A stretch of 64,000 nt of DNA from Diploptera punctata (taxonomy: Eukaryota > Arthropoda > Insecta > Blattodea > Blaberidae): positions 72,001 through 136,000 of the forward strand of contig JASPKZ010007288.1 of assembly GCA_030220185.1 (NCBI GenBank), read 5' to 3'. The notes beneath the pieces were generated by a model. The model made no database searches, was not told the origin of the DNA, and saw nothing but the letters and a program-made list of their open reading frames with translations. The first letter of the stretch is position 1. Every line of letters starts with the position of its first letter. Below are positions 5,366 to 55,923 of this stretch, piece by piece. Made by a program: the position numbers and the translations under genes.

Positions 5366-7385
5366 TGACCTGACCAGCAATCTACTGAACTATACTGACC
5401 CAATCTAACCGAACATGACCTATACTGACTATACCTGACTGAATCTGACCGAACTTAACGTAACCTAACTTAACCTAACATAATCTAATCGAATCTATCC
5501 TAACCTAAACTAATCTAACTAAACTGAACTTGAATCTAACCTGAACCTAACTTCAAAATAATCTGAACCTAACTTGAACATAGTATGAACTTAACCCGAA
5601 CCTATTCAGAACCTAGCCTGATCCTAACCTTAACCCAGCATAAACTCAGCTTAAACCTAGCCTGAACCTAACTTGAACCTAGACTGAATTGAACCTAACA
5701 TAATATAACTTCAATCTAACTTAAACCTGGTGTGAACCTAATCTAAACCTAACTTGATCCTTGCCTGAGCATAACCTGAATATAATATGAACCTAACTTG
5801 AACCTATCCTGAACCTACCAAGTACCTAACATTATCCTAACCACATCTTAACCTGAACCTAGCCTCAACTAACCTCAACCTAGCCTGAACATAAGGTGAA
5901 CCTATCCTGAACCTAACCTGGACCTAACCTAAATCCATTTTCGACCTAATTTAAAATAGCCTGACCCTAATATAAACCTGAGGTTAACGTAACCAGAACC
6001 TAACTCGAATCTAGACTGAACCTACCTGAACGTAACTTGAACCTAACCTGAATTTGAGTTGAACCTAGCCTGCACCTAACATGAACCTAATTAGAACGTA
6101 TTCTTCACCTAACGTCAACGTAGTCTAAACGTAACTTGAATCTAGCTTGAACCTAACATGAACATATCCTGAACCTAACTTGTACCTAAAGTAAACATAA
6201 CTTGAACTTATTCTGAACCAAGCCTGAACATAACTTGATCCTAGCATGAAACTAACTTGAACCTAATATGTGTCTAACCTGAACCTAACACGTGTCTAAC
6301 CTGAACCTATCCTAGACCTTACCTGAACCTAACTTGAACATATCTTGAACCTATCGTGAACCTATCCTGTACCTAACTTGAACCAAACCTCAACGTAACC
6401 TTAACCAACCTGAAACAAGCCTGAACGTAGCCTGAACGAATATAAATCTAGCCTGAACCTAACCAGAACCTTACATGAACCTAACTGGAACCTAGCCTAA
6501 ACCTAATGTGAAACTGTGCTGAACCTAACTTTAAACAAACCTGAACCTAACCTGTACTTAACTTGAACTTAGCCTGAAACTAACCTGAACCTAACTTCAA
6601 CCTAGAGTGAACATAACCCGAACCAATCCTGAACCTAAAATGATCGTAACTTGCACCTAACCTGAATATAACCGAACCTAAATAGAACTTAAATCAAAAC
6701 TATATCTGACCTAAACCGATTCTAAACTGAATTTAAATTAAACCTATGCTGAGACTACACTGAAACCTACACTGAACTTACACTGGCCCTAAACTGAACA
6801 TAACAGGAATTTAATACGAAAATAAACCAAACCCAACCGAACCTTACTTAACCGTGCCTAACCTCACCTAAACCTTACCTGAATCCAAACAAGAAACCAG
6901 AACCCGAATCCAAAACAAAAAACGAGAAACCGAAACTAAAACCCGTAAAGAAGTGAACTCAATACTGAACCCAAAACTGAATTCAAACTGAGCCCAAACC
7001 CGAACCAAACTGAAACCGAACCCGATCTCAAACTGAACCCGAACCTAAACCCAAACCTGGACTTAACCCACAACTTTATCTGACCTAAACTTGACCTAAT
7101 CCGGGCATAACTCTATTCTAACCCGAAACTAACCCTGACCTAACCCGGACATAACACTATCCTAACCCGGAGCTAACCCTCCCAACCTAACCTAACCTTG
7201 ACCTAACCGAACTGTATCGAACCATACCGAACCTAGCTATACCTAACCTAATCTATCCTAACCTAACTCATCCTAACCTAACCGAACCTAACCCAACCTA
7301 ACCGAACCTGATCTGACCATACCTAATCCGACGATATCAGATCGATACCTGACCAAACCGATACCTAACCTAACCCAGAAATAAA
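5366..7385 (+). repeat. Degenerate CCTAA-type (insect telomere-like) tandem array
   Basis: About 2 kb is built from CCTAA and variants, with the C-rich strand on + throughout. Three zones can be seen. Near 5440-5520 and 7180-7320 the repeats are mostly plain CCTAAC. From about 5550 to 6660 the dominant unit is an 11-12-mer alternating CCTGAA with CCTAA (for example CCTGAACCTAACTTGAACC). From 6890 to 7170 the variants are CCGAACC-like and CCTAACCCGGACATAAC. Insect telomeres are (TTAGG)n, so this is either a heavily mutated interstitial telomeric tract or an independently expanded satellite. It lies between Helitron-like ends. Confidence 0.75.
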
Positions 7386-7680
7386 GTCCAAACGATCCGA
7401 TCAAACTACACCTAAAACCAATGAAATTACCTTTACAACTATGAAATTACCAGTAGCTAATCAAACTACCTCTATAAAGACCAAAATTCTCAATAAACAG
7501 GTTAAATTATCCCTAAAACATGAATCTATATGTACATCGATCACACTATCTCTAAAACGGTAAAATTACCCTTAAACGGATGAATCTATCTCCAAAATGA
7601 TCGACTTACCCGTAAACCGGCCGACATACATCTAACTCAACCAAACAACCCGTAAACTGATAATTACGATATAAAAGTAT
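7386..7680 (+). repeat. Degenerate ~33-bp minisatellite
   Basis: Successive units carry the motif GATC(A/G)AACTA-N-CTAAAAC and AATGAAATTACC with drift, about eight times. The array continues directly from the CCTAA-like tract and ends shortly before the 3' end of H1. Confidence 0.5.
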
Positions 7681-16018: not shown

Positions 16019-16020
16019 TA

Positions 16021-18528
16021 GTAGTAGGAAAGTTTGGAGAAAACATTTTAAATGACAATGGAGAAAGGTTAATTGAATTATGTAGACAATCATCTTTAAA
16101 AATATGGAATGGCTTTTTCAATCATAAATATATTCATAAATACACGAGAGAAAGTCCAACACTATATCCAAAATACATTATCGATTATACAATTACAACA
16201 AAATTAAAAAGTTAAAATACAAGATGTCAGATCTTATAGAAGAACAAATTGGCAGACAGATCATAAATTAGTAATTGGAAAATTTGTACTTCCTTCTACA
16301 TATAAATAAAACAGAAAAAAAGAAAATGTTATGACAGAAACAGAAAGAAAATATAATGTAGCAAACCTACAAAACAAAAGTGTAAAGCGTTTATATCAAC
16401 TAAGATTGAATAAAAAAATAATACAAAGGGAACTCAGAGATAGAGAAGAGAGGTATTAGTACCTAAAAAGGTGCGTTCATGAAGCTATGAAGCATTGGGT
16501 GAGAAAGACAATAGAGGAAGGACAGCACTGTTTTGGAACGGAAATAGAGATAAAAATACGGAATATGAAACAGTTATTTTTAAGATGCCTTAGAACAAAG
16601 AATCAGAATGACAAAATACAATATCAAAAAGCACAAGCAAAATTGAGAATATTGGTTACTAAACACAGAAACGAGATTTAGGATAAGAAATGTATAGAAA
16701 TACAAACATATTTAGGAAGCATGGAGAATTCTGAATCGTGGATATTTATAAATAGTATACGTTCATCTAACAGAAATAAGAATCTTCTCAATCTAACAGG
16801 GACATACGAATGGGAAGAATGTTACAAAAACTTTTAGTAGAAGACCGAAAATAATTTTTGGGACAAAATGACGATTTATCATAGATTAAAACAGGAAACA
16901 TAATCGAGATTGATAAAAATACTGTAAAAAAAAGAAAATTATGGGAATGAAGAATGGTATAAATTCCGGTGAAGGAAATATTGCTAAAGAATTGACTAAA
17001 AGTGGCAGCCAGAAGTTATGGGAAATTATCACTGTATTGTTTAATAAATGATAAATGGCGAAGAAATGCCAGAAGAGTGGAAATATGTTATTGTAACATC
17101 GATACATAAAAAGGGAGACAAGAGAAATTGTGAAAATTATAGAGGCATATCAGTAACAAGTAGATTAGGTAGAACTTATAGTCGTATACTATTTAAATGG
17201 TTCAGCTAGTTTACCAAGATAAATAAATGGAAGAGCAATCTGGTTTTTGAAGTGGTAGATCATGCACGGATAATATATTATGCATAACGCAAGTGATTCA
17301 CAAAAAAAGAGCTACTAACCGAGATTTACATTTATGTTTTATCGATTTATTTAAAGCAAATGATAGTATTCCTCAAAATAATGTTATGGAGGAGAATTTA
17401 GACAATTCATAATCTGGAAATAAAAGATTAATAGTAACTATTAAACTCGTCCGTACACATTTTTAATTTGAAAAATATAAATTTTGAAAGCCAATCACCG
17501 AGGAATTTAATGTTACAAAATATTTAATGCAGGGTTACTGTTACCTTCAACTCGATTACCAATTTATATTGACAGAGTAGTAAGAGGGAATGAAGAAAAA
17601 TACGTCAAAAATGGCATACTCATCTCAAAATAATCATTGTTATATCACTCCTTCGGATCAGAATTTATACTTTTCTTTTTTTTTTTGTTTTCCCTTTTCG
17701 TTTTTTTTTTTGTTTCTTTCTTTCTTTGGTATTAATAGCACACGATCATGAGTACATAGAACACTAGGAAATAATACTAAAAGACGCCTATGAAAACTGC
17801 GGGACCTTATATAATTAGCCACGAAAAACTACAATATCTGTGCTACTAGGACGAAGAAAGGCCGAAAATATATATTTCAAAAATGAAGGAGAACTACAAA
17901 ACCTAATATTGACTGCACTTCTTTCGACAAAACATTAGACCAATCAGGCGATTACCACAGTGGGAAATTAAAAATAGCCAATCGCAACAAAACAGTAAAA
18001 GCTTTCAACTTTGTTTGGTGGAGAAAAATTACAATCCACAACACCCAGATCGCATAAAAGTTAATAAACAATACACCTAAAAGCATAGGTCAGAGTAATA
18101 TGAAGTTTGGCAAATGCCTACTAGGGAAATTAAAATACACTTTAAGTACAGAAATCGATGTTTTATGATCAGTTGGAAAATCTAGGACAGGATTGTAGAT
18201 ACGAAATAAGAGAAATTATGGGTGTACACAACTGGAGCCAGACATTAAAGAGCTATGCTATTAAGCGTACATTATATTAATTTGGTAAGGACATATAAAA
18301 CAGATTGCCCAGCGCAAAGCTTGCCTACAACGTATTGTGAAATGTATCCCCAATGGAAAGGAAACCCAAAGAAAAACCTTGATAGAACGTGTGCCAAGTA
18401 GCTATTATTATCAGAGGATTGGAGTAAGATCGTGGCGATGGCAAACGAGAGAAAGGAGAGAAATGAGTTTTGTTTCGCGCAGACGACCCCCCTAAGGACA
18501 TCATGATACCGGATGATGGTGATGACTA
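16021..18528 (+). mobile_element. LINE-B copy, 5'-truncated
   Basis: This copy is a reference for the interrupted LINE-B in the 43.7-55.9-kb nest. It begins inside the endonuclease region (GERLIEL, then HKYIHKYTRESPTLYPKYII, IDYTI). It continues through NIAKELTKSGSQKLWEIITV, EEMPEEWK, NYRGISVTS, and a C-terminal WYGHIKQI block near 18270. It ends in ATGATACCGGATGATGGTGATGAC, the ATGATGATG-type tail. Stops and frameshifts are frequent, and a T-rich low-complexity block sits at 17665-17725. It contains the uninterrupted sites GAATTATGTAGACAATCATC (16075-16094) and the GCTTTCAACTTTG region (18001) that are split by hAT insertions in the other copy. Confidence 0.7.
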
Positions 18529-22724: not shown

Positions 22725-23666
22725 TAAAATTGATTGCAACAATTGCAGGGGCATCTCATTACTTTCAATTTCGTACAAAATTCTAACAAATATATTAGTA
22801 AGCAGACTCACTTCTTATATCGATGACATTGAAGGAGATCATCAATGTGGATTTAGAAGAAACAGGTGTACAAAAGATCAGATTTTTAGTATAAGACAGA
22901 TTTTAGAAAAGACATCGGAATATATATGTACTGTACATCAACTATACGTAGACTTCAAAAACGTATATGATTAAATTAAGACGGAGAAGTTATATAGTAT
23001 CCTGCTGGAGTTCGGAATTCCTAAAAAGTTAGTTAAACTTATACGAATGTATCTAAATGGCACAAAGAGTAAGGTGCGTGTAGGCAAACAGTTTTCGGAC
23101 ATTTTTGGAATCCAGAATGGGTTGAAGCAAGGAGAAGCACTATCTCCTCTACTATTTAATTTTGTACTAGAGCATGCCATTAAATCTTTAGAGAATGAGG
23201 AAGGCTTACAACTGAATGGTATTAATAAGCGGTTCGTTTATGCTGATGATGTAGTTTTGTTGGCCGATAGCGAGGAGATACTAAAGGACAACACGCACAC
23301 AGTATTGAATAACACTAAGAAATTGAGACTGGAAGTAAATATCAATAAAACTAAATATATGGTCACACGTAGAAACACATGGAAATGGACAGCTAATGAC
23401 AAATGAGGAAAATTTTTAAGAAGTGGCTAAATTCAAATACTTAGCAACAATAATCACAAATAGGAATGAGATGCACAAAGAAATTAAACATAAACTCAAT
23501 TCTGGAAATGCCTGCTATTATACATTGCAGACTCTTGATGTCCCAACTCCTTTCCAAAGACGTTAAAATGAAAATATATAAAACTATTATTCGATCAGTT
23601 ATATTATATGAGTGCGAAACATGGACTCTTACTTTAAGGAAGGAAAGGAGAATACGAGTATTTTAG
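22702..23666 (+). pseudogene. Reverse transcriptase fragment of LINE-A
   Basis: RT blocks appear in order. NCRGISLLSISYKILTNIL and DIEGDHQCGFRRN are in the first frame (22702-22974). After a TAA at 22972, KVRVGKQFSDIFGIQNGLKQ and GEALSPLLFNFVLEHAI follow, then the catalytic FVYADDVVLLADS (about 23237-23275). After a further break, RSVILYECETWTLTLRKERR is the thumb region. The block order and the YADD box define a non-LTR reverse transcriptase. The endonuclease is absent because of 5' truncation. Similarity of other LINE-A copies to CFDP2-like proteins suggests the RTE clade. Stops and frameshifts make it non-functional. Confidence 0.75.
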
Positions 23667-36504: not shown

Positions 36505-36726
36505 ATATTGTTAAGACTCCTGCCGTAGGCACCTTCTCTAGGAGACGAACACTCCGAAATTGCAGTACCCTGCCCTCCAGGAAGAGGGATTTGGCTAGAG
36601 GCCGGTAACCTCTACTAGTAAAAATAACTTACACATAAACTTCAGCAGAAGAAAAGCCGGATTGATAAACCTTAAGACGACTACAGCAAGAAAAAGGAAA
36701 AAAAAAGAGTTTTGGAATACATGGCC

Positions 36727-37733
36727 AGCTTAAAATAGCGACTTGGAATGTCAGAGGCTTGGGAAGCAAAGAATTCGAACTAAAAAAAGAAATGAAACAT
36801 AAAAATATAAATATATTAGCTGCCTCAGAAACAAGTAAAAGATTGAAAGGATCACAAATGATAAATCATATGATGATGTTTTACAGTGGAGTAAGTCAGA
36901 AAGAAAGAACGAAAGCACTAGTGGCGATATTTGTGGATAACTGTATTAACGAAAGAATAATGACAATGCGATTTAAGCATAATAGAGGACATATGACAAT
37001 TATAGCAATATATGCACCGGAGGAAGGGAGAGATGAAGAAACAAAAACATTTTATTCTACTCTACAAAAGGAAATAAATAAGATAAACAAGAACGACATA
37101 GTAATATTATTAGGAGACTTTAATGCTAGAGTGGGGAATCAACCATAGGCAAATGTAATTGGGTTCCATGGAAAAAATGTCATATATAAAAATGGACAAG
37201 AATTAAAACAATTCTCAATTTTTAATGATTTTAAAATAACAAATACATTTTATAAGAAAAAAGATATTCACAAATACACACGGTCAGCACGAGGTTATCG
37301 TTCACTGATTGATTATGTGCTAGTCAATAAGAAAGCATCGTCATTATTAACAGATACGAGAATATTTAGAGGAAGTGGTATCTATTCAGATCACTATTTA
37401 GTAATCTCAAAAATAAATATATTAGCGAGATGGAAGAAAACTAAAAACAAATATGGTAATAAAGAGACCACATTTAAAGTACATTTATTACAAGATAAAA
37501 TTATACAAAATCTGTATCAGAATATGCTAAATGAACAATTAATATTAAAACCTACTTCCCAAGAAATAAACCGAGAATGGGATAATATAAAAGAAAACAT
37601 TGATAAAGCAGCATATGAGGCATTAGGAACAAAATATAAAATATATAACAGGAAGGGTTTAACAATATGGAATGAAGAATTAGAGAGGATAATAAAAGAT
37701 AAAAAAGGCTTATCACAAATATTTACAGAATAG
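36727..37733 (+). pseudogene. LINE-F apurinic-type endonuclease and connector
   Basis: The frame opens KIATWNVRGLG (the N of TWNVRG is the first active-site residue). It continues with AASETSK, the catalytic glutamate block, and later VILLGDFNARVGNQP with the D and N of GDFN. A single in-frame TAG follows at 37146. The frame then resumes with NDFKITNTF, KKDIHKYTRSARG, IDYVLV and finally YSDHYLVISK, the SDH catalytic motif. All APE-type endonuclease motifs are therefore visible apart from the one stop. After about 37733 the coding shifts frame. The function in the parental element would be target-site nicking for target-primed reverse transcription. Confidence 0.75.
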
Positions 37734-42788: not shown

Positions 42789-42846
<58 letters not shown>

Positions 42847-43580
42847 CTTTATTTTAGCTGGCAGAATTAAGGCCATAAGGCCTGCTCTTCCATTAACCAG
42901 CGAATAGTTGAATTATACAAAAATTACATACATACTATAATTTTAAGATATTATCAAAATGCAGACTAAACAAAATACAATGACGATGTGATATAATACT
43001 AGCTAATACTAAGAAATACATAGAATATAATAAAATTAAAGTTATGTAAAATAAAGTAAGTATCTTCCTAGATCATTATGTATAGAATGCTCTATATAGT
43101 TGTTATGCAGTCGAACTTAAGATATCAGGTAATTTGGATTTAAATGATGATAGCGATTGACAGTCCCTGACATTACTGGGAAGTGAGTTTTATGCTCTAG
43201 TCATAGATATTGTGTAAGATTCAGAGTATAGACATGTCCTGTGTTGTGGTATCAATAGGGAAGAAGAGTCTTGTGATCTTGTTCCTAATTTGTGATGAGC
43301 CATTATATTTCGAAAACGTGTTGTTAAATAACTTGGTAAATATATGTGCAGAATTTGGAATAGTAAGGTATGTGAATGTAAATTTTTCTGCCATTTAGGC
43401 GTAGCCATGGTAAGGCCACAAATTAAGGAAACACGTGGTCATAACTACGGAGATTGAACATAAATCTAATGCACGCATTTTGAGCAGGCTGTAGTCTGTC
43501 AGATAGATCAGTTGTCATATTTGTCACTGATATGTCGCAGTAGTCGAAGTGTGGCATTATAAGAGTCTGTACATGCATTT
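42789..43580 (-). mobile_element. LINE-D, 5'-truncated, inserted in LINE-A
   Basis: LINE-A is continuous on either side, from GGACAACACGCACAC at 42780 to CTCGCTATTGGCC at 43581. The insert ends in (ATT)n on its own 3' side (42789-42845). Its minus strand reads MQTLIMPHFDYCDISVTNMT, then LSDRLQPAQNACIRFMFNLR, which is the post-RT block of CR1/Jockey-type LINEs (LIxPHFDYCD...LQxxQNxCIR). More stops follow toward the 3' end. No target duplication is clear. Confidence 0.65.
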
Positions 43581-43690
43581 CTCGCTATTGGCCAATAGTA
43601 CTGCATCATCAGCGTAAACTAAAATGTTATTAATACCATTGAGTTGTGGGCCTACTTCATCCTCTAAAGATTTGATGGCATGCTCTAGTA
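43581..43690 (-). mobile_element. LINE-A nest copy: short middle piece with LINE-B target duplication
   Basis: The minus strand reads EHAIKSLEDEVGPQLNGINN, then LVYADDAVLLA, continuing the RT palm of LINE-A exactly where the 5' half stops at 55924. Positions 43681-43690 (TGCTCTAGTA) are the 10-bp duplication made by LINE-B insertion. The other copy is at 55914-55923. Confidence 0.8.
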
Positions 43691-44205
43691 TCATCATCAT
43701 CATCATCATCATCCGGTATCATGGCAGCTGCCGCGGTCTTCAGAAATCCAAACGCCATTCCTCTCTGTCCATTCATATTTCTTCCTCCATTCCTCTGATA
43801 TTCATAGCTGCTTGTACCCCTTCTCTCCAAGTTTTCTTCGGTCTTCCTCTCTTCCTCCTTTCCATAGGGATCCATTGCATAACAATTTTTGACAATTTTT
43901 GCCCTGGAATTCTTTTGACATGGCCATACCACTGTAATCTTTTCTTTTCTATAATGTCAATGAAGTCCGGTTCCTCTTGTACACGCATAATTTCCCTTAT
44001 TTCTTTATTTCGTATTCTATCCATTCTGGATTTTCCAGCTGATCTTCTTGAAACATCCATTTCTCTACTTAAAATTATTTTCAATTCCCTGGTAGGAATT
44101 ATCCAGACTTCAGTACCATCTGCTATATTGTCTCAATTATGGATTGATTTATTTGTAATTTTTTATTTTGTGTAATATTTTTGCTCCAATAAACAGAATT
44201 TAAAG
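43691..44205 (-). mobile_element. LINE-B nest copy: 3' end
   Basis: The minus strand carries the LINE-B C terminus: ELKIILSREMDVSRRSAGKS, then KKRLQWYGHVKRIPGQKLSK and RRKRGRPKKTWREGVQAAMN. The stop is followed by the ATGATGATG tail at 43691-43712. Two overlapping minus frames (43657-43932 and 43773-44084) are parts of this coding. It stops at the 8-bp hAT target site ATTTAAAG (44198-44205). The 183-codon plus frame over it is antisense. Confidence 0.8.
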
Positions 44206-46151
44206 CATAGAAGAGCAATCTCTGTGTCGCGACTGAATTTGAGTCGCAGTCTCGACCAGGTTATAGTGCCGTGCGGACGTAACTAAGCAGACCTGTACTT
44301 CAAAACTGTAAACAAGCTGTGGCGGATTTTTCTCAAAATTTTCGACCTCTTACAAGCAAGCGTAAATTTGAAGTAGAATGGGAAGAAGAGTTTTTTTTCT
44401 TGCAAGTGGAGAAAATGACACCTGTCTCCTGTGTTTCAAAACGCTATCAGGCGTATTTAAGGGAAACGTTAGACGCCATTATCAGTTGAACCACAAAGAT
44501 TATCACACGTTTGCGGGATTGGAAAGGCCGGTATTATAAATACAAGAATTAAAAAAACACTTGTTGTAAACAAAGTGAATAAGAGGCCGTACCAGACGAA
44601 GATGAAATGGCAAAAAAGTTGTTGATAGCCAGTTATTGTGTAGCATGGGAGATTTGTAAAGCTATGAAACCTTTTTCTGACAGTGAATTTGTGAAAATAT
44701 GTGTGTTAAAGTTAGCTGATGTTATATGTCCCCATGAAAAAATACTTTTTGGGAAAGTGTGTTTGTCCAAGCGCACTATTGTAAGAAGAGTAGAGGACAT
44801 ATCAAAATATATCGATCAAACGTTGTCAGTGCAATTAAAAGAATTTGAACAGTTATCAATAGCTTTGGACGAACGTTGCGATATAAGTGATACCGCACAA
44901 TTAGCCGTGTTTCTTCGTGGTGTGAATCAGGAGATAACAGTCTCTGACTCTTTTCTGGGTTTAATACCACTTGCCGGACATACATCAAGATAGGATATTT
45001 TAACCGCTGTTTATACTTTGATTACAAATAAGAAATTGGACTGGAAAAAAATAGTGTCCGTTGCAACAGATGGCGCTCGAGCTATGATTGTTGAAACCAG
45101 AGGTTTTGTAGGTAGACTAAGGGCATATTTACAAGAGATTGCTATAAATGAGAAGGTGTATTATTTTCATTGCATTATCCATCTGGAGGCATTCCGTACG
45201 AAAGTTCAGAATATGAATAGCGTCATGAATACTGTCGTAAAAACAATCAATATAATAAAATCCAAGGCTCTGAAACATCGTCAGTTCCGAACATTTTTGA
45301 AAGATACGGCTGAAAATTATGAAGATTTAATTTACTACACTGAAATCAGGTGGCTGAGTTGGAGTCGGATGCTACACAGATTCTTCGAACTTCGTGCGGT
45401 AATTGCTGAATTCATGCGAACACTGGGATTGCCTATTCCAGAGTTAGAAGACGAAGGCTGGTTAAATGACCTTGCATTTATGATCGATATTTGTGAACAT
45501 CTGAACCAATTAAATACCTATTTGCAGGGAAAACAAAAAGTATAGTAGATGCATATGGAGACGTAAAAGCATTCACTTCAAAACTAGATCTGTGGAAATC
45601 TCAAATTTTAGAATAAAATCTGTACCACTTTCCCTCTCTCAACTGTCTTCCAAATGTGAGAGAACAAAAACTACAACATTACAGCAGTGTATTAGAAAAC
45701 CTACATATAGTATTTGATTGTCAGCGATTTAGATATTTCCGACAAATGGAAAATCATTGTTTATTGTTTGTTAATACAATGACTGTTGACGTGCGAAGTG
45801 TGCATTCGCATTTACAGATGGAAGTTATAGAAATGAAAAATGACATACTTCTTAAAAGTAGGTGTGAAGTTTTATATTGATCAAGCATTTTTTAAATACT
45901 TCCAATCTCAAAATACCCTAATCTTCGTCAATATTGGTTCCTAAGTGTTAGCCATGTTGCGCTCCACTTATCTATGTGATCAATTATTCTCCTTTATCGG
46001 AACGTAGATCTCCTCTGAGAAATGAACATTTGTTAGCAATGTTAAATATTGCTCTCTCGGATGAAGAACCAGATTTTCAAGACATCTGCAGACAATAATA
46101 TAATGAGGCTTCCACCGCATGCCGGAATCCACCACTGAACAGTCCGAATCA
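44206..46151 (+). mobile_element. hAT transposon copy 1 (hAT1), main part
   Basis: The 5' end CATAGAAGAGCAATCTCTG follows the 8-mer ATTTAAAG. The sequence matches hAT2 (53032-55071, reverse) along its whole length with only scattered differences. At 46152 it is interrupted by LINE-C and resumes at 50667 for the final ~90 bp. Its two flanking 8-mers (ATTTAAAG left, ATGTAGGC right) differ from each other. Each matches a flank of hAT2. Confidence 0.85.
44410..46140 (+). pseudogene. hAT transposase relic (ZBED/GTF2IRD2-like), copy 1
   Basis: A BED-type zinc finger lies at 44423-44500: CLLCF then RRHYQLNH, i.e. C-x2-C...H-x4-H. The catalytic core follows in frame 44607-45545: SIALDERCDISDTAQLAVFL (first acidic site), an in-frame TAG at 44991, then SVATDGARAMI (second aspartate), FHCIIHLEAF (CxxH motif) and the EDLIYYTEIRWLS block. 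A frameshift follows near 45535. The C-terminal dimerisation region (45900-46090) is present out of frame. Stop and frameshift make it inactive. The TAG is shared with copy 2. Confidence 0.8.
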
Positions 46152-46522
46152 GATAGTAGTAGTAGGAATGTATTAGACAAAAAGTAAGATATTTACAATA
46201 TTATATACAAATATGGGTCGCACGGGCAGTAAGCCGTACGTGCTGTTGACAGTTCGTTACAAAAAAGTAATAATTGGTACTAGTGTAAAGAAAAATAAAC
46301 AAAAAAAAAGAAATAACATTACAATTACATAAAGAAATCACAATGATATTACAATTAAATAATAACACATTAGCATTATACACTAAAATAACATTAACAT
46401 TGAAATTACATTAAGAAAACAATAATATTACAATTAAATAATAACGAAATGGCATAATACACTAATTAATTTATATATAATTGTTCAGAATTAATGGTAT
46501 TGCATTTTGGTAACATATATAT

Positions 46523-49500
46523 TTATTCATGAATGCGTGTTGTCCTTATTTTCGGCGTTTTGTCCAGAAATATACCGAGGTTTATCCAATTTTCTTGATT
46601 TACCAATAACTCGTAGCATGACAATCTTTCCCAATTTGAATTTAGAAATCTTTTAGTTAATAACTGACGTCTCGAATATTCTAAATTATTACATTTTCCT
46701 AATATATGTACCTCATCTTCAAAGTACCCGAACATTTGACATATTCGCATATCATGATCGTCGCTAATTTTTAGAAATTTCTATGCCCCTAGCCTAAACC
46801 AAGAAAGCCCTGATCTCTCCTTAAATCCTAGGTTGAGTATATACGATTCTTTTTCCCAGACGTGTTTTAGGTCTCTTTGTAAATACAGTGAGCGTTTTCC
46901 TGTACATTCGGCGAAAGTATCTTGTTGGCTTATATCTAAGTACCTCCTCCTTATTTTTCTCCACACGTTCTTGAGATTTTCAGTCCCTTTTTAGCTTATC
47001 CAGCCCATCCCGATCTTTTGGAGTTCTCTCCTAACATCGACTGCCCAAAATTTAACATCTATGTTTTTAATTTGGTGGTCGTAACAAATTGCTCTAAGCA
47101 TTGTTTGTTCACCTTGGATTACTCGCAACCAGTATCTGAGTACACGAATTTTACAGTTTATGTCGTCCTGGAATGACCCGAATTCATATAAAATCCACAG
47201 TTAGAAACGGCCTTACTAAGTCCTGTAATATATTTTAGAAAATGCGTATATACCTTATTTAGTACTTCCGTTATTTGGAAACCCCAAATCTCACTACCAT
47301 TGTGCATTATTGGCCTGACCATCGCTCCATACATTTTTTCTAATGTGCTGACTGGAATATCAGGCACTAGACCCAGAATACCGAGTACACAGTTAAGTTG
47401 TCCCCTCCCTTTAAATAATGCTATATCAATATGTTTTTTCCACTTCCCGTTCATTTTCAACGTCGTGCCAATATATTCAAAATGTTTCACATTTTGAAGT
47501 ATTTGATCTCTGTATCTCCATTCCTCTGCTATACCATAAACCGTCCCACTTTTAAATTTTTAAAGGTCATTGTTTTTGTCTTACTAACATTTACAGTCAA
47601 TCCCCAATTCCTACAATTTATTTCCAGTAGGTCAAGACCTCTTTGCAATCCCTTGATTGTCTTGGAACATATAATTAAATCATCTGCATACAATAGGACT
47701 GGGACTTTAACATTTCTTATCTCCGGAGCCTCAATTTCTCCTTCTAGCATTACTTCTACAATATTATCAACGAATAGATTAAATAGCATTTGTGATGAAA
47801 TGGAACTCTTGTCTCACTCCCCGATTTGCTTCACTGCTCTCTGTAATGTGCCTACTTTTATACAAAATTTAACATGTTTACAAATTTACTTTAAAGCATG
47901 TATCATTTTATGAGACAATCCTTTCCGGTTTAATTTTTCCCAAAGAGCACTTCGGTCCACAGTATCTAATGCCATCTTAAAATCAATGAATGCACAAAAT
48001 AATTTACCACCCTTAATTTCCAGATTGTCAAGAGACAAATTCCCCTGTAACATTGTGGTAACTGTGCCCTACCTTTCCTTTTGTATAGCGGTTGGATGTC
48101 ACCTGTCGTACAGGCTTCCGGACAATCTTCTCCATTAAAAAGTTTGTTGAACGTAGTTTTCAAAACGTCTAATAATTTATTGGATGATATCATATTTTTC
48201 AAGAATTCCCCTGGTATTCCATCAATTCCAGGTGCTTTACCATTCTTTAAACATTTAATGGAAGAAACCACTTCATTTTTCGAAATATCCTGATCCAGTA
48301 AATGAAAATGAATTGGGTCAGGAATCTCAAACATTTTCCTTGATTATATCTTAACCTCTCATTTCCCACCACCCTATCAAAGTAACTTCTCCATTCCCGG
48401 GCGTTATTCTTGTCCGATTTATGGACTTTACTTTGAGTTCCTTTATCGCTTTCCATATGTCCGCAATGTTCCTACGTTCAGTCGCGACTCTCATCTCTTC
48501 GGATTTCTTATTTTGCCATGCCAGTTTTGTTTGTCCCAATAATTATTTATATTCCTTTCTCTCTTGCGCATATTTTTTTTTTGTTTTCATCTGTGCTTAC
48601 TTTTCTAAACTTTAAAAGACGAGTTTCTACAAACTTCTTCTTCTTTCTACATGCATTGTTTTACCACCCTTTGTACTTCTGGTCCATTGCGTATTTAACT
48701 TTGAATTTTTTCCCTGTTTTCTGAAAAGATTCTGTCAAAGTTTTAATAATTTCCTCCCCGCTAAGATCATTCAATTGCAGATCCTGTATTAGCGTTCACT
48801 AACTCCTGATACATTCTTCTCTCTGGTCCTCGAGCCACCTGAAACATGTAATAGGCCACAATATTGTTGCCACCTCATCATTAACTGTCTCACTAATACC
48901 TTTCATATTTAAAACAAGTTTGTTTGGGAAGTGGCGTGATTCGATTCTGGAAACTATACAGAAGTTACTTAGGACTGGAATCATGTCTTGTGTGCATATT
49001 GAATAATCGATTACGCTACCTCCATTTTTATTAATAAATGTCAGTTCTCCATTTTTATCTTCCCCATATTCCCATTCAGAATTTCAAGTTCAAATACATC
49101 GCAAAAAGCTAAGAATTGGTTTCCTTCTAAATTTATAATCTTATCTTTGCTTCTCCTACCCTCACCTCGTGTTTCAATATGATCTGATTTATAGTGATAT
49201 TTTCCTCCCCTATCCTACAGTTAAGGTCCCATAAATTATTATTTCCGCTTCCGGAAACCTATCTTTTATTTCTGCCAACGAGTCAGACAATTCAACGAAA
49301 AAATTTGGATTGGCATACCTGGAATTTAGTGGTTGGCGGTAAATAGACAACAGACACGTTTCTGCTCTTCCTGTATGGTAATATACACAAATTGCCTCTT
49401 TTAAAGCAATATTTACCTTTTTAATATATGGGTCTAAGTTAGCTTTATATAAAATGGCAACACCATCTGGATATCTATCTCTCTTCCCTCTAGTTTCATT

Positions 49501-49660
49501 ACTCTTAAAATAGCCTTTTATATTACATAGAATTACGCATTCATTAGCTTTTAACCATGTTTCACCTAGAGCTAATATATCAAAAGTCTCAATAAACTCT
49601 ATACATCTGTCCATTGAAAGTTTTGTTTTAACCCTTCGATATTCCATGAATCGACTGTCA
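46523..49660 (-). pseudogene. LINE-C ORF2 (endonuclease-reverse transcriptase)
   Basis: In order on the minus strand: SWNIEGLK (49652, the endonuclease asparagine), DILALGETWLKANE with the catalytic glutamate (about 49575), and LLSIYRQPLNSRYANPNFF. The RT follows: KCLKNGKAPGIDGIPGEFLK (48270), then VPVLLYADDLIICSKT (47700). Thumb sequence is HFEYIGTTLKMNGKWKKHID. A C-terminal knuckle, CQMFGYFEDEVHILGKC, lies at 46740-46690. The GDFN motif of the endonuclease is damaged (YGTLTVG). Frames are open for 60-145 codons each and separated by shifts. The clade is uncertain (L1/CR1-like mix of features). Confidence 0.75.
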
Positions 49661-49667
49661 ACAAACC

Positions 49668-50592
49668 CTATTGTGTTCCCTTGTCATTAGTCTTACCTGT
49701 ATTTTTCAAACCTCCCCCTCTCAAAAGTTCCTTTTCTGCGGGTAAATTCAGCAGTCTTAGTGATTTTCTTCTTTGAGTTCTTGAGTCCGCCGGTCGTTCA
49801 CTTCTTAGAAGTGGGGTATACTTTTTGCGTTCGGCTGTTTTGTGCAGAATGTTTATTGGATTCCTCGGAGTTAGTATCGTAGTGCTCCCTCTCTCTTTCT
49901 CTCGTATAGAATTTTCTTCCTCCTCTGCTGTAAGGAGACCACCTGCTGTTGAAGCGTCCCCTGTAGGTTTTGGGGACTCGCTATCAATGACCTCTTCAAA
50001 TTCATTTTCAGAGTTGTCCATATTTTGTAGTTGTTCCCTGCTCCAGATTTGTCCATTTATAATCAATTTATTAAATTGCAGGATAGCATGGCAGCCCTGC
50101 CTCCTCGCCTCGAGCATGTGTCACTTAAGAAAGTCCCTTTCGCGACGCACCTTCTCACTAAAGTCTTCGGCAATATTGATACCGGTCCCTTTAAGATATT
50201 TACTCTCTCTAAGGATCCAACATTTTATTTTGTAGTGTGATAATTTGCATACAATCGGTCTCTTTCCACTATTCCAACGACCTTCTCTGTGCGCTCTTTC
50301 AATATCACTGTCCACCAAATCAATCCCGATTTACGCCACTACTCTTTTAACTATATGTTCAGTTTCCTCCCAGCTCTCCCTGTCTCCTTCATGCACTTCA
50401 TATATCACAATATTATTACGGCGACACTGGTTTTCGAGATAGTCTAATTTAGATTCCAGCTATTTCAATCTCTCCTCCATCCGATGCATGTTCGTCTCAA
50501 TATCACAAATTTTTTTCACCCACGTTGCACTTTTCAAACCCCTCTTTCACTTCAGTTGACAATGTTTCAATCAGCTTTCTAACTTCTTCCAT
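49668..50592 (-). pseudogene. LINE-C ORF1 (L1-like RNA-binding protein)
   Basis: The ATG at 50592 opens MEEVRKLIETLSTEVKEGFE, a likely coiled-coil start. After breaks comes DIERAHREGRWNSGKRPIV, then KLSHYKIKCWILRESKYLKG, AEDFSEKVRRERDFL, and after a frameshift EARRQGCHAILQFNKLIING. This is the ordered signature of the L1-type ORF1 RNA-binding and C-terminal domains (R-HR-G...RPI, K..IL..ar.LKG, eDfs..VR..R..L, ar..G..A.l.fnKL.I.G). The tail is charged, ending NDKGTQ. In the live element it would coat LINE RNA. Two or more frameshifts disrupt it. Confidence 0.7.
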
Positions 50593-50666
50593 AATGCTTT
50601 GTCCCCTGCACACTTCAACCACTCTAACAAAAACACGTCCGCTCTTCTCGACGGTCTGCTTGGAAC

Positions 50667-50757
50667 CCGAATCATGTATGCTTACATCTCCACCCCTCCC
50701 AAAATTGCCCTGTACCGCGGGTTGCTTTACTATGAGTCACAGGGGGCCCCACCCCTG
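50667..50757 (+). mobile_element. hAT1, 3' terminal piece beyond LINE-C
   Basis: ACATCTCCACCCCTCCCAAA continuing to the terminus GCCCCACCCCTG at 50757 matches the 3' end of hAT2 (53032-53110, reverse) base for base with few changes. The flank ATGTAGGC (50758-50765) is the 8-bp target site. I first took this stretch for the LINE-C 5' leader. The CCGAATCA duplication shows it belongs to hAT1. Confidence 0.8.
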
Positions 50758-53031
50758 ATGTAGGCAATCATCTTTAAAAATATGGAGTGAATTTTTCAAT
50801 CGTAGAGATATCCATAAATACACATGGGAACGTCCAACACTAAATCAAAAATCCATTATCGATTACATAATTACAAAACAAAATTCAAAAATCAAAATAC
50901 TAGATGTCAGAGCTTATAGAGGACAAAGGTGTGGGACAGATCATGAATCTGTAATTGGAAAATTTGTACTTCCTTGCATTCTTAATAAGGAAAACAACCA
51001 CACAGGAAAATAAGTAAATGATAGAACAGAATCGAAAAGAAAATATAATGTAGAAATCCTACAAAACGAAAGTGTAAAGCATTTATATCAACAATGAGTG
51101 ACTAAATAATTAACACAGAGTGAATTCAGAGATGTAGAAGAAATGTATCAGCACCTAAAAAGGTGCTACAAACAAAAAGGAATGAGACTCCGTTGTTAAC
51201 TTAATTTCCGCCTTCTCAACTCTAGGACTAATTTTGAGAACACTGGTTATTAGTATTTATTAAAAGCTTAATTTAATTTTCACTGCAAAGATTTTAAGTT
51301 AAATTAAACTAATGACAAAATACAATATCAAAATGCACAAGCAAAATTGAGAAGAATGGTTACTAAACACAGAAACAAGATTTTGGATAAGAAATATACA
51401 AACATATTTAGGAAGTAAGAAGAGTTCTGAATCATGGAAATTTATAAAACGTATACGTACATCAAACAGAAATAAGAATCTTCTTAACCTAATAGGGATA
51501 CATGGAAGGCAAGAATATTGCAAAAAAACTTTTAGTAGGGGACCGAAAAGGATTTTTGGGAGAAAATGACGATTTATCAGAGATGGAAACATAATCGAAA
51601 TTGATATAAATACTGTAAAAAAGGAAATTATGAGAATGAGAATTGATAGTAATGCCGGTCCAGGAAATATTGCTACAGAAGTGATTAAAAGCGGCAGTCA
51701 GAAGTTATTGGAAATGATCACTGTACTGTTTAATAAATTAATAAATGGCGAAGAAATGCCAGAAGAGTGGAAGGTCGTTATTAACATCGATATACCCTCA
51801 GGGGTCCTCTTCTAGGGGATATGTGGATGGCGACCACAAGGTGCCCAAGCTGAGCAAAACATTTCTTCCACTTACTTGCGTTTTGCACTCTTTTAACTTT
51901 ACTATCTAACCTCTCTCGGTTAACTCTTGTTTTTTCGACCCCGACGCTATTAGGGCATCCGAGTGCTAGGGAGTCTTTCCTTTCTTGTATTTCTTCTTTC
52001 CTTTATTTTCTTTTCTTCTCCAGAAAAGCCTGACCAGAGGCTATAGGATGGCAGCCCCATCACTGGTCTTGCCTTCCTTTGGCCAGCAACCAATCGAAGG
52101 GACTATTATTATGCTTTCAAGTCTTATACGAGAATTTTCCAGAAGGATCAATTTTCTATAGGATCGTAACAGGCCTTGGCCTAATACTTGGAAGGAGAAG
52201 AAGAAGAAGAAGATATAAGAAGGGAGACAAGAGCAAGTGTGAAAATTATAGAGGCATATTAGTAACGAGTACAATAAGTAGAATATACGGACGTATACTA
52301 AGTAAAATGGTTGATATAGAATACCAGGATAAATAAATGGAGGAACAATCTGGTTTTAGAAATGGTAGGTCATACACAGGTAATATATTTTGCATAACAC
52401 AAATGATAGAAAAAAGAGCTACTAACAGAAATTTATATTTGCTTTTTGTCGATTTAACCAAGATATATGATAGTATTCCGCAAAAACTGTTATGGGAAAC
52501 TTTAGACAATTCTAACGTAACAAAAAAATTAGCAGAAGTTATAAAACATTATAAAAAGGATCTACTTCCAAAATAAAATTTGTAAATCATATGAGAAAGG
52601 GACTTACTATTACGAAAGCTTTAAGGCAAGTTTGCTGTTTATCTCCAACTCTATTTAAAATGTATCTCGAAAGGGCTACTACGAGACTGGAGGAAAAAAA
52701 ATGTCAACAAATGGGCATATCCATGCAAAATATATATATGTATATTCACTAAATTTTGCAGATGACCAAGTATTTATAGCACAAAACCACGATGACGTAG
52801 AATATTTGGCTAAAAAACTAAAAGAAGAATATGAATAATGGGGACTTTATATAAACATTGAGAAAACTAAATATGAGAAGAAATGGAAAATATAAATTTC
52901 AACAATGGAGAAGAACTAAAACCTAGTATTGAATGCACATATTTAGGAACAAAATTAGACCATTCAGGCGACAACACAATGGAAATTAAACATAGAAACG
53001 CACAAACAAACAAGCTGTAAATACTTTAAAC
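50758..53031 (+). mobile_element. LINE-B nest copy: middle segment, inverted
   Basis: Plus-strand LINE-B continues from the endonuclease (HKYTW, then KSIIDYIITKQNSK, SDHESVIGKF-like) through NAGPGNIATEVIKSGSQKLL and GEEMPEEWK. The RT includes NYRGILVTSTISRIYGRILS, EEQSGFRNGRSYTGNIFCIT, LYLLFVDLTKIYDSIPQ and NFADDQVFIAQ. It is bounded by the two hAT sites ATGTAGGC and CTTTAAAC. Its 5' and 3' continuations are on the opposite strand at 55080-55913 and 43691-44205. A stretch at 51800-52200 does not fit LINE-B coding and may be a further insertion or a diverged part. Confidence 0.75.
51630..52860 (+). pseudogene. LINE-B reverse transcriptase
   Basis: RT blocks appear in order: NAGPGNIATEVIKSG (51650), KLINGEEMPEEWKVV (51735), GDKSKCENYRGIL (52224), MEEQSGFRNGRSYTGNIF (52337) and LYLLFVDLTKIYDSIPQ (52434). 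Then come LRQVCCLSPTLFKMYL (52620), NFADDQVFIAQ (52756) and KLKEEYE. The FADD box keeps both aspartates. The region between the second and third blocks is interrupted by about 400 bp of unrelated sequence (about 51800-52200). Several frameshifts and stops follow. Confidence 0.7.
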
Positions 53032-55071
53032 CAGGGGGTGGGACCCCTGCGACTCATAGTAAAGCAACCCGCGATACAGGGCAATTTTGGGAGGGGTGGA
53101 GATGTAAAAATACCAGATTCGGACTGCTCAGTGGTGGATTCCGGCATGCGGTCGTAGCCTCATTACAGTATTGTCTGCAGATGTCTTGAAACTCCGGTTC
53201 TTCATCCGTGAGAGCAGTATTTAACATTGCTAGCAAATGTTCATTGCTCAGAGGAGATCTACGTTCCGATTTTACGTACTTGATTAAGGAGAATAATTTA
53301 TCACATAGATAAGTGGAGCGCAACATGGCTAACATTTAGGAACCAATATTGACGAATATTAGGGTATTTTGAGATTGGAAGTATTTAAAAAATGCTTGAC
53401 CCATATAAACCTTCACACCTACTTCTAAGAAGTATGTCATTTTTTATTTCTATAACTTCCATCTGTAAATGCAAATGCACACTTCGCACCTCAACAGTCA
53501 TTGGATTAACAAACAATAAACAATCATTTTCCATTTGTTGGAAATCTCTAAAACGCTGACAATCAAATTCTATATGTAGGCTTTCTAATACACTGCTCTA
53601 ATTTTGTAGTTTTTTTTCTCTCACATTTGGAAGACAGTTGAGAGAAGGAAAGTGGTACAGATTTTATTCTACAATTTGAGATTTCCACAGATCTAGTTTT
53701 GAAGTGAATGCTTTTACGTCTCCATATGCATCTATTATACTTTTTTCCCATGCAAATGGGTATTTAATTGGTCCAGATGTTCACAAATATCGGTCATAAA
53801 TGCAAGGTCATTTAACCAGCCTTCGTCTTCTAACTCGGGAATAGGCAATCCCAGTGTTCGCATGAATTCAGCAATTACCGCACAAAGTTGGAAGAATCTG
53901 TGTAGCATCCGACCCCCGCTCAGCCACCTGTCTTCAGTGTAGTAAATTAAATATTCATAATTTTCAGCCGTATCTTTAAAAAATGTTCGGAACTGACGAT
54001 GTATCAGAGCCTTGGATTTTATTATATTGATTGTTTTTACGACAGTAATCATCACGCTATTCATATTCAGAACTTCCGTACACAAAGCCTCCTGATGGAT
54101 AATGCAATGAAAATAATACACCTTCTCATTTAAACCAATCTCTTGTAAATATGCCCTTAGTCTACCGACAAAACCTCTGGTTTCAGCAATCATAGCTCGA
54201 GGGCCATCTGTTGGAACGTGCACTAATTTTTTTCCAGTCCAATTTCTTATTTGTAATCAAAGTATAAACAGCGGTTAAAATATCCTATCTTGATGTATGT
54301 CCGGCAAGTGGTATTAAACCCAGAAAAGAGTCAGAGACTGTTAACTCCTGATTCACACCACGAAGAAACACGGCTAATTGTGCGGTATCACTTATATCGC
54401 AACGTTCGTCCAAAGCTATTGAAAACTGTTCAAATTCTTTTAATTGCACTGACAAAGTTTGATCGATATATTTTGATATGTCCTCTACTCTTCTTACAAT
54501 AGTGCGCTTGGACAAACACACTTTCTCAAAAAGTATTTTTTCATGGGGACATATAACATCAGCCAACTTTAACACACACGTTTTCACAAATTCACTGTCA
54601 GAAAAAGGTTTCATAGCTTTACAAATCTCCCATGCTACACAATAACTGGCTATCAACAACTTTTTTGCCATTTCATCTTCGTCTGGTACGGCCTCTTCTT
54701 CACTTTGTTTACAACAAGTGTTTTTTAATTCTTGTATTTATAATACCGGCCTTTCCAATCCCGCAAACTTGTGATAATCTTTGTGGTTCAACTGATAATG
54801 GAGTCTAACGTTTCCCTTAAATACGCCTGATAGCGTTTTGAAACACAGCAGACAGGTATCATTTTCTCCACTTGCAACACAGAAAAATTATTTTTCCCAT
54901 TCTACATTAAATATACGCTTGTTTGAAGAGGTCGACGGTTTTGAGAAAAACTCGGCACAGCTTGCTTTCAGTTTTGAAGTACAAGTTTGCTTAGTTACGT
55001 CCGCACGGCACTATAACCTGCTCGAGACTGCGACTGAAATTCAGTCGCGACTCAGCGATTGCCCTTCTGTG
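53032..55071 (-). mobile_element. hAT transposon copy 2 (hAT2)
   Basis: A 2.04-kb copy. On its own (minus) strand it starts CACAGAAGGGCAATCGCTG after ATGTAGAC and ends CCCACCCCCTG before GTTTAAAG. An 8-bp target size and CA...TG termini fit hAT. The terminal inverted repeats are very short and imperfect. The 5' sub-terminal region is palindromic (GACTGAAATTCAGTC). Compared with hAT1 the 128-residue core segment differs at four positions. Confidence 0.85.
53054..54900 (-). pseudogene. hAT transposase relic (ZBED/GTF2IRD2-like), copy 2
   Basis: Same order as copy 1: zinc finger near 54840-54780, core SIALDERCDISDTAQLAVFL (54671-54285) ending at the same in-frame TAG, then VPTDGPRAMI and FHCIIHQEALCTE (54223-53735), and a C-terminal block LCDKLFSLIKYVKSERRSPL with SNEHLLAMLN (53335-53054). 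Relative to copy 1 there is one extra base just before VPTDG, shifting the frame. VATDGARAM has become VPTDGPRAM, changing the residues around the second catalytic aspartate. It is inactive. Confidence 0.8.
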
Positions 55072-55913
55072 GTCTACATAATTCAATTAACCTTTCTCCA
55101 TTCTCATATAAAATATTTTCTCCAAAGTGTCCTACTACTGGATCTCCAAATTAACTTCCTGTTCTTCCATTCATGTCTCCCAATAGTATCAAATATTTCA
55201 CAGTGCTAATTTCTATATTTCTTCAATAACTTTGTCAAAAATAAATCATTTTCCAGATTTGTAAATCCATTATCGTTAATAGGTGCGTATATTCGAAAAT
55301 ATGTTAACTTATAGCCCCATATATTCAAATCTTATTTTAAAATTCTCTCATCAACGGCTTCCCAATATCTTAGAGTGCCTTTCCATTTCTTATTAATGAA
55401 CATTGAAACACCACTTTTTGCTTTTTATGTTTAACTACGCCAGTGTAAAGGTGTAAATAATTGCCTAATATTTTATTTCCTGTGCCTTTCGTGTTACTTT
55501 CTGTTAAAATTGACAAATCCTAGTTTCATTGAAAATATTTCTTTAAATACATCCTCCATTTTATTTCTGCAGCTTTGAATATTGCATGTGCCAATTTTGA
55601 AAGTAATTTTTTCTTATCTTTAATCGTCCTAGAGTGTTTTTCCGAGGCATGATGTTTGGTTTTTAGCATTTGTTCTTTTTATGATGAACGAGGAGCTGGC
55701 CCGAAGCATCAACTTTCTACTTGGGGGACGGGTAATTTTTATTCAAGGTTTTCGTCTTCTAGGTTTTGATAGTCCAGTACCTTACTGCAAGGCCGCAGCG
55801 CTATTTTTGTGCCGCCCTGGTTATTTTATTTGCCCTGTACCCATCATACCTGGCTAGCGTTCTCTTATCCGCCACCTGGGGACGCGTCCGATGGGGACTG
55901 GCAACTCCACATG
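55072..55913 (-). mobile_element. LINE-B nest copy: 5' end
   Basis: On the minus strand the element begins CATGTGGAGTTGCCAGTCCC at 55913, immediately inside the 10-bp duplication. It passes through a GC-richer leader and an endonuclease start (APINDNGF, and a GDMNGRTG-like region near 55170) to NGERLIEL and ATGTAGAC at 55079, where hAT2 was inserted. The plus-strand frames at 54838-55209 and 55809-56078 are antisense or chimeric. Confidence 0.75.
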
Positions 55914-55923
55914 TGCTCTAGTA

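Follow-up and report, generated by a model that had tools for sequence, protein, structure and literature searches.

The arrangement of this locus raises the question of how the middle part of a LINE came to lie backwards between two hAT transposons. In the window (the whole stretch of DNA that was analysed, 64 kb in length) there is a nest of repeats in three layers, with two hAT elements inside a LINE (LINE-B) that is itself inside another LINE (LINE-A, on the minus strand). The coordinates of this nest are given in Table 1. The two copies, hAT1 and hAT2, are homologous, they lie in opposite orientation at both ends of a segment of 2.3 kb, and the ends that face each other are both right ends. 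The initial annotation explained this as two hATs that inserted into one LINE-B and then recombined. The inverted LINE-B middle between oppositely oriented hATs is strongly supported by the comparisons below, and we have high confidence that the inversion itself is real, whereas separate insertion followed by crossover is now the leading reading and not the only one. The sequence examined is decayed repeat, and it showed no effect on any gene.

Table 1. Features of the repeat nest, with positions in the window
Feature	Position	Strand	Remark
LINE-B target-site duplication, 5' side, TACTAGAGCA	55914..55923	-	within LINE-A
LINE-B 5' piece	55080..55913	-	5' region and first endonuclease part, RTE-like
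Target-site duplication X copy 1, ATGTAGAC	55072..55079	-	identical letters at 16080-16087
hAT2	53032..55071	-	2040 bp, dead transposase
Target-site duplication Y copy 1, CTTTAAAC	53024..53031	+	
LINE-B middle piece	50758..53031	+	inverted segment
Insert in LINE-B middle	~51793..52214	.	~420 bp, absent at 17104-17106
Target-site duplication X copy 2, ATGTAGGC	50758..50765	+	
hAT1	44206..50757	+	6552 bp with nested LINE, dead transposase
LINE-C	46152..50666	-	4515 bp, nested in hAT1
Low-divergence stretch of hAT1/hAT2	44429..45029	+	candidate gene-conversion or crossover tract
Target-site duplication Y copy 2, CTTTAAAT	44198..44205	-	
LINE-B 3' piece	43691..44197	-	(ATG)n tail at end
LINE-B target-site duplication, 3' side, TACTAGAGCA	43681..43690	-	within LINE-A

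The target-site duplications of the two hATs are exchanged. When the four octamers that had been placed beside the hATs were checked in the window sequence, all four positions were correct. The flanks of each copy do not match each other, as had also been claimed (4/8 for hAT1 and 4/8 for hAT2); crosswise, the match is 7/8 for the X pair and 7/8 for the Y pair. Random pairs of octamers from the window match at 7/8 or better with a frequency of 0.00088, and two such matches would be found by chance at about 8e-7, which is a naive figure since two pairings are possible. The duplications are 8 bp long, as in the hAT superfamily. The other LINE-B copy in the window (16020-18525) reads ATGTAGAC at X and CTTTCAAC at Y. 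The G at 50764 in the second X copy looks derived, and the last C of the Y copy at 53024-53031 is the same as in the other LINE-B copy, which in turn has one letter, at another position, that neither Y flank shares.

LINE-B had been described as split across the hATs into minus, plus and minus pieces, and the alignments of the pieces to the copy at 16020-18525 agree with this. The 5' piece at 55139-55072 (minus) aligns to 16020-16087, the first part of the middle piece (50758-51792) aligns to 16080-17104 and its second part (52215-53031) to 17106-18009, and the 3' piece, from 44205 downwards (minus), aligns to 18002-18525. On the uninterrupted copy the pieces overlap at the breaks by exactly 8 bp each, at 16080-16087 for X and at 18002-18009 for Y, and compared with that copy neither break has any deletion or duplication beyond the target-site duplications. 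The claim that rejoining the pieces restores an uninterrupted LINE-B is borne out by these overlaps. The copy that starts around 16021 has only about 60 bp before break X. The bulk of the 5' piece (55140-55913) is without a counterpart in it, and was assigned to LINE-B on the basis of an endonuclease-like reading (by eye) and the outer 10-bp duplication. Summed with each 8-bp duplication counted once, LINE-B comes to 3615 bp including the insert of ~420 bp, and its own length without the insert is about 3.2 kb. The insert has a (GAA)n end and a possible GATATA duplication.

The initial annotation had also raised the objection that the pieces could come from different copies of the LINE, and the outer ends answer this. 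The outer limits of LINE-B are 55913 and 43691, and just beyond each is the 10-bp duplication TACTAGAGCA. When the 12.2-kb complex is taken out and one TACTAGAGCA is kept, LINE-A is continuous as in the LINE-A copy from 22719 on, and this uninterrupted copy in the same window reads GTACTAGAGCATGCCATTAAATC at the LINE-B site with no break. The pieces thus belong to one LINE-B copy. LINE-A also has a second interruption at 42790-43580, at a point corresponding to 23274-23279; it is ~790 bp long and includes a (TAA)n run.

The breaks were also examined with proteins. The LINE-B read-through used as a query matched 157 proteins at an E of 0.001 or lower (120 listed), and the organism names among the matches listed are arthropods. 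The best 36 of the 157 relatives are 921-1012 aa long and carry PF00078 with PF03372 and/or PF14529, so that endonuclease and reverse transcriptase are in one protein of ~900-1000 aa, and we take the clade to be RTE. These best 36 of 157 (120 listed) were the sample for the junctions. Under the loose rule a single tblastn match had to run on for 15 bases beyond the join in both directions; under the strict rule the local score also had to be positive on each side of it. The rejoined X was spanned in one frame by 36/36 proteins under both rules, with the protein reading ...GERLIELCRQSSLKIWSEFF... across it, and the rejoined Y was spanned by 27/36 (loose) and 19/36 (strict). The joins as sequenced served as controls and were spanned by 2/36 and 6/36 (loose, with one of these joins set 8 bases off) and by 2/36 and 3/36 (strict, at the exact joins). 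Part of the loose matches at Y passed the join via poorly aligned sequence. These comparisons make break X very firm, and for break Y the overlap of the DNA is stronger support than the proteins. The strict recount left the odds for the inversion and for its candidate mechanisms where they were, since it touches neither the DNA overlap at Y nor the evidence from LINE-A at the outer ends.

The hAT2 read-through matched 33 related proteins with organism names from mixed animals, and the best match has an E of 7e-117 and 38% identity over 98% of the read-through. Nine of the 13 named relatives bear the name 'general transcription factor II-I repeat domain-containing protein 2' or 2A, and we presume that this GTF2IRD2-type name is tied to hAT transposases. 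Four single hAT ORF pieces gave no match in Pfam, and Rfam gave no match within the 64-kb window. By eye, the right end of the hATs reads CAGGGG inward and the left end CA(C/T)AGAAG, and the two, compared as possible terminal inverted repeats, are only loosely alike. hAT1 is as long as it is only because of the LINE-C inside it, which is absent from hAT2 and is flanked by CCGAATCA at 46144-46151 and 50667-50674; one LINE-C piece gave a weak endonuclease match below the Pfam cut-off.

Both hAT copies are shown to be dead, as judged by frameshift-aware alignment to 3 of the 33 hAT proteins. The stops TAG 44991/54287 and TAA 45614/53666 and a frameshift near 45540/53740 are common to hAT1 and hAT2 in 3/3 comparisons. 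Another frameshift, near 45926-45953/53336-53354, was called in both copies in 3/3 comparisons, but its place moves with the reference and so it was not counted as firm. TAA 45893/53387 was called in both copies with P0001 only, and with P0003 in hAT2 only. A further stop (after RPVL) was seen by eye in both translations and was uncalled in the lesion alignment. hAT1 alone has a frameshift at 44412 in 3/3 comparisons, and hAT2 alone has two lesions in 3/3 comparisons, the stop at 54890 and the frameshift at 54233. With codons that differ at all three positions left out, pN/pS for hAT1 against hAT2 is 1.04 over 552 codons. Since inactivating lesions are shared and pN/pS is neutral, the common progenitor was very probably inactive before the copies were formed. 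Later movement would have required transposase from elsewhere.

The two copies are 94.6% identical (109 mismatches in 2013 aligned sites), and such a pair is a suitable substrate for recombination. The mismatches are spread unevenly: the first 200 aligned sites hold 25 of them (about 1 in 20000 permutations), the 600 sites of 44429-45029 hold 10 (0/2000 permutations, window lengths 100-900), and divergence elsewhere is 6.1%. An earlier scan with a length of 500 sites, which was picked after viewing the data, gave 1/5000 permutations. The copies are identical over 118 bp at most, and a mismatch-free run as long as the longest one is ordinary, being reached by 516/5000 permutations. Coding constraint was rejected as the cause of the low-divergence stretch because pN/pS is 1.01 in 44509-45009 (161 codons). 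The low divergence suggests that hAT1 and hAT2 exchanged sequence across these 600 bp. Gene conversion, possibly at the crossover itself, would account for the stretch, and it could also be the result of later gene conversion or uneven mutation. The mismatches include 45 transitions and 59 transversions, and an odd substitution pattern specific to hAT was considered and dropped because five other repeat pairs lean likewise. Transversions exceeded transitions in 6/6 repeat pairs counted in the window. Under neutral decay, transitions are commoner in most genomes.

Other features of the window were recorded as well. A 1.6-kb palindrome at 29701-31340 matches its own reverse complement at 78% and could be a long-inverted-repeat element. 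Another LINE at 36669-37730 has a comparatively open endonuclease-like frame (159 + 194 aa, with one stop between), of which the first part gave a weak Pfam match below the cut-off and the second part none. A degenerate array at 5433-7309 is rich in CCTAA/AACCT. The density of CCTAA is 32 per kb in 5400-7400 compared with ~1 per kb elsewhere, and no TTAGG was found on the plus strand within the 5400-7400 array. The telomere repeat of insects is TTAGG, to which CCTAA is complementary, and the array looks like an old interstitial telomere-like block. Together with the organism names among the LINE and hAT protein matches, this TTAGG-type array suggests that the DNA comes from an insect.

Several explanations other than an inversion between hATs have to be considered. 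An assembly error at the inverted repeats, with a true order that is non-inverted, is very unlikely. Inverted repeats of 2 kb are the place where such errors arise, but these copies differ at 109/2013 sites with no identity longer than 118 bp, one of them holds a 4.5-kb insert, and the window contains no N. It is even harder to believe that the hATs sit in fragments of different LINE copies and that the cross matches arose by chance. The missing counterpart for most of the 5' piece would fit such an origin, as would an identity to the 16020 copy that declines along the LINE (93% over 68 bp in the 5' piece, 77% and 68% in the first and second parts of the middle piece, and 65% in the 3' piece). 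However, this reading is opposed by the exact 8-bp overlaps at X and Y, by the proteins that span both rejoined points, and by the single 10-bp duplication round the outer ends with LINE-A continuous across. Inversion of the LINE by twin priming was rejected because both breaks are hAT ends with exact 8-bp overlaps. Reversed-ends transposition, as described in PMC8225341, requires directly oriented copies in which a left end faces a right end, and the duplications that it leaves are new and match each other; it was rejected because the facing ends here are both right ends and there is no new matching 8-bp duplication (own flanks 4/8).

Two separate hAT insertions followed by ectopic recombination that flipped the segment is the reading that we favour, with a probability of roughly 0.6. 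The RTE-like LINE-B (~3.2 kb) would have inserted in LINE-A first. Two inactive 2.0-kb hATs of one subfamily, mobilised by transposase made elsewhere, would then have inserted in LINE-B in opposite orientation, ~1.9 kb apart in LINE coordinates. We infer that the intervening segment was flipped when the two underwent homologous (ectopic) recombination, which may have taken place within or close to 44429-45029. This would have made hAT2 a chimera whose left end comes from the insertion at X and whose right end comes from the insertion at Y, hAT1 would have the opposite combination of ends, and the target-site duplications would have been exchanged. Exchanged duplications and chimeric copies are what ectopic recombination between inverted copies predicts according to the available part of PMC2775673. 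Chimerism would be invisible here because only two copies are compared and a reciprocal crossover leaves no trace in such a comparison. Self-comparison (matches of at least 120 bases) found no third hAT copy in the window, and because of this and the shared lesions, hAT1 may be a product of hAT2 or vice versa.

The last point leads to hybrid element insertion, which is less probable but still carries considerable weight. In that case there would have been a single dead hAT at X (or Y), transposase would have joined ends from sister chromatids, and the hybrid (the left end of one chromatid copy and the right end of the other) would have inserted ~1.9 kb away in the same LINE. One such step gives a second identical copy, inversion of the segment and exchanged 8-bp duplications, and PMC2775673 describes an outcome that departs from that of ectopic recombination in the identity of the two copies and is otherwise strikingly like it. 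A single insertion into LINE-B suffices, and shared inactivating lesions are predicted, as found. These lesions had not been mentioned in the initial annotation; the firm ones are TAG 44991/54287, the frameshift at ~45540/53740 and TAA 45614/53666, and the differences between the copies are neutral (pN/pS 1.04). However, TAG 44991/54287 is inside the low-divergence stretch and could therefore have spread by conversion, and a non-autonomous subfamily moved in trans would equally show shared lesions. Additionally, copies that were identical at birth should have later differences that are neutral and evenly spread, so that the uneven divergence (25/200, 10/600 and 6.1% in the rest) requires conversion or uneven mutation to be added. 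No report of a natural hybrid element insertion of a hAT was found in the available parts of PMC2775673, PMC8225341 and PMC12368964. The locus may, with the lesser probability, be a fossil of one, in which a lone inactive copy would have been mobilised in trans on paired sister chromatids and gene conversion would have followed. The uneven divergence favours recombination between older copies, whereas the shared lesions and the nearness of the sites favour hybrid element insertion.

Galileo is a P-like element, and its inversions in Drosophila buzzatii are reportedly of chromosomal scale. Galileo gave rise to the inversions 2j, 2q7 and 2z3 of this species (Delprat et al. 2009, PMC2775673). As at the present locus, 2z3 has two opposite copies of one DNA transposon at its breakpoints, exchanged target-site duplications, and nested insertions in the transposon copies, a LINE-like one included (PMC2775673). 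The Galileo duplications are 7 bp whereas those of this hAT locus are 8 bp, the Galileo inversions are polymorphic, and chimerism was shown there with other copies whereas here it is a prediction (PMC2775673). Also, the inversion here is 2.3 kb, and both of its sites lie in a single LINE from which the ancestral order can be read. The reversed-ends inversions of maize Ac/fAc are similar in that the elements are hATs with 8-bp duplications and two elements bound the inversion, but they start from direct orientation, the intervening fragment is lost and the matching duplications are new (PMC8225341), whereas right ends face each other here and the duplications are exchanged. In Atlantic cod, hAT-derived copies are also found at inversion breakpoints and ectopic recombination was proposed, but those inversions are large and have tandem MITE arrays, and neither 'target site duplication' nor 'TSD' occurs in the main text (PMC12368964). 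For fly, maize, yeast and cod alike, the same source, naming earlier work, ties hATs to inversions.

The signature of exchanged duplications is already in print for another transposon, Galileo (PMC2775673), and this locus is a small, internally controlled new case of a known rearrangement type. Inversions linked to transposons are usually studied by comparing inverted with non-inverted chromosomes, as in PMC2775673. Here the ancestral order was obtained without a second genome, from three nested layers and uninterrupted stretches of LINE-A and LINE-B in the same 64 kb. The flanking footprints of ectopic recombination and hybrid element insertion are identical, and with genome-wide hAT copies this locus could separate the two.
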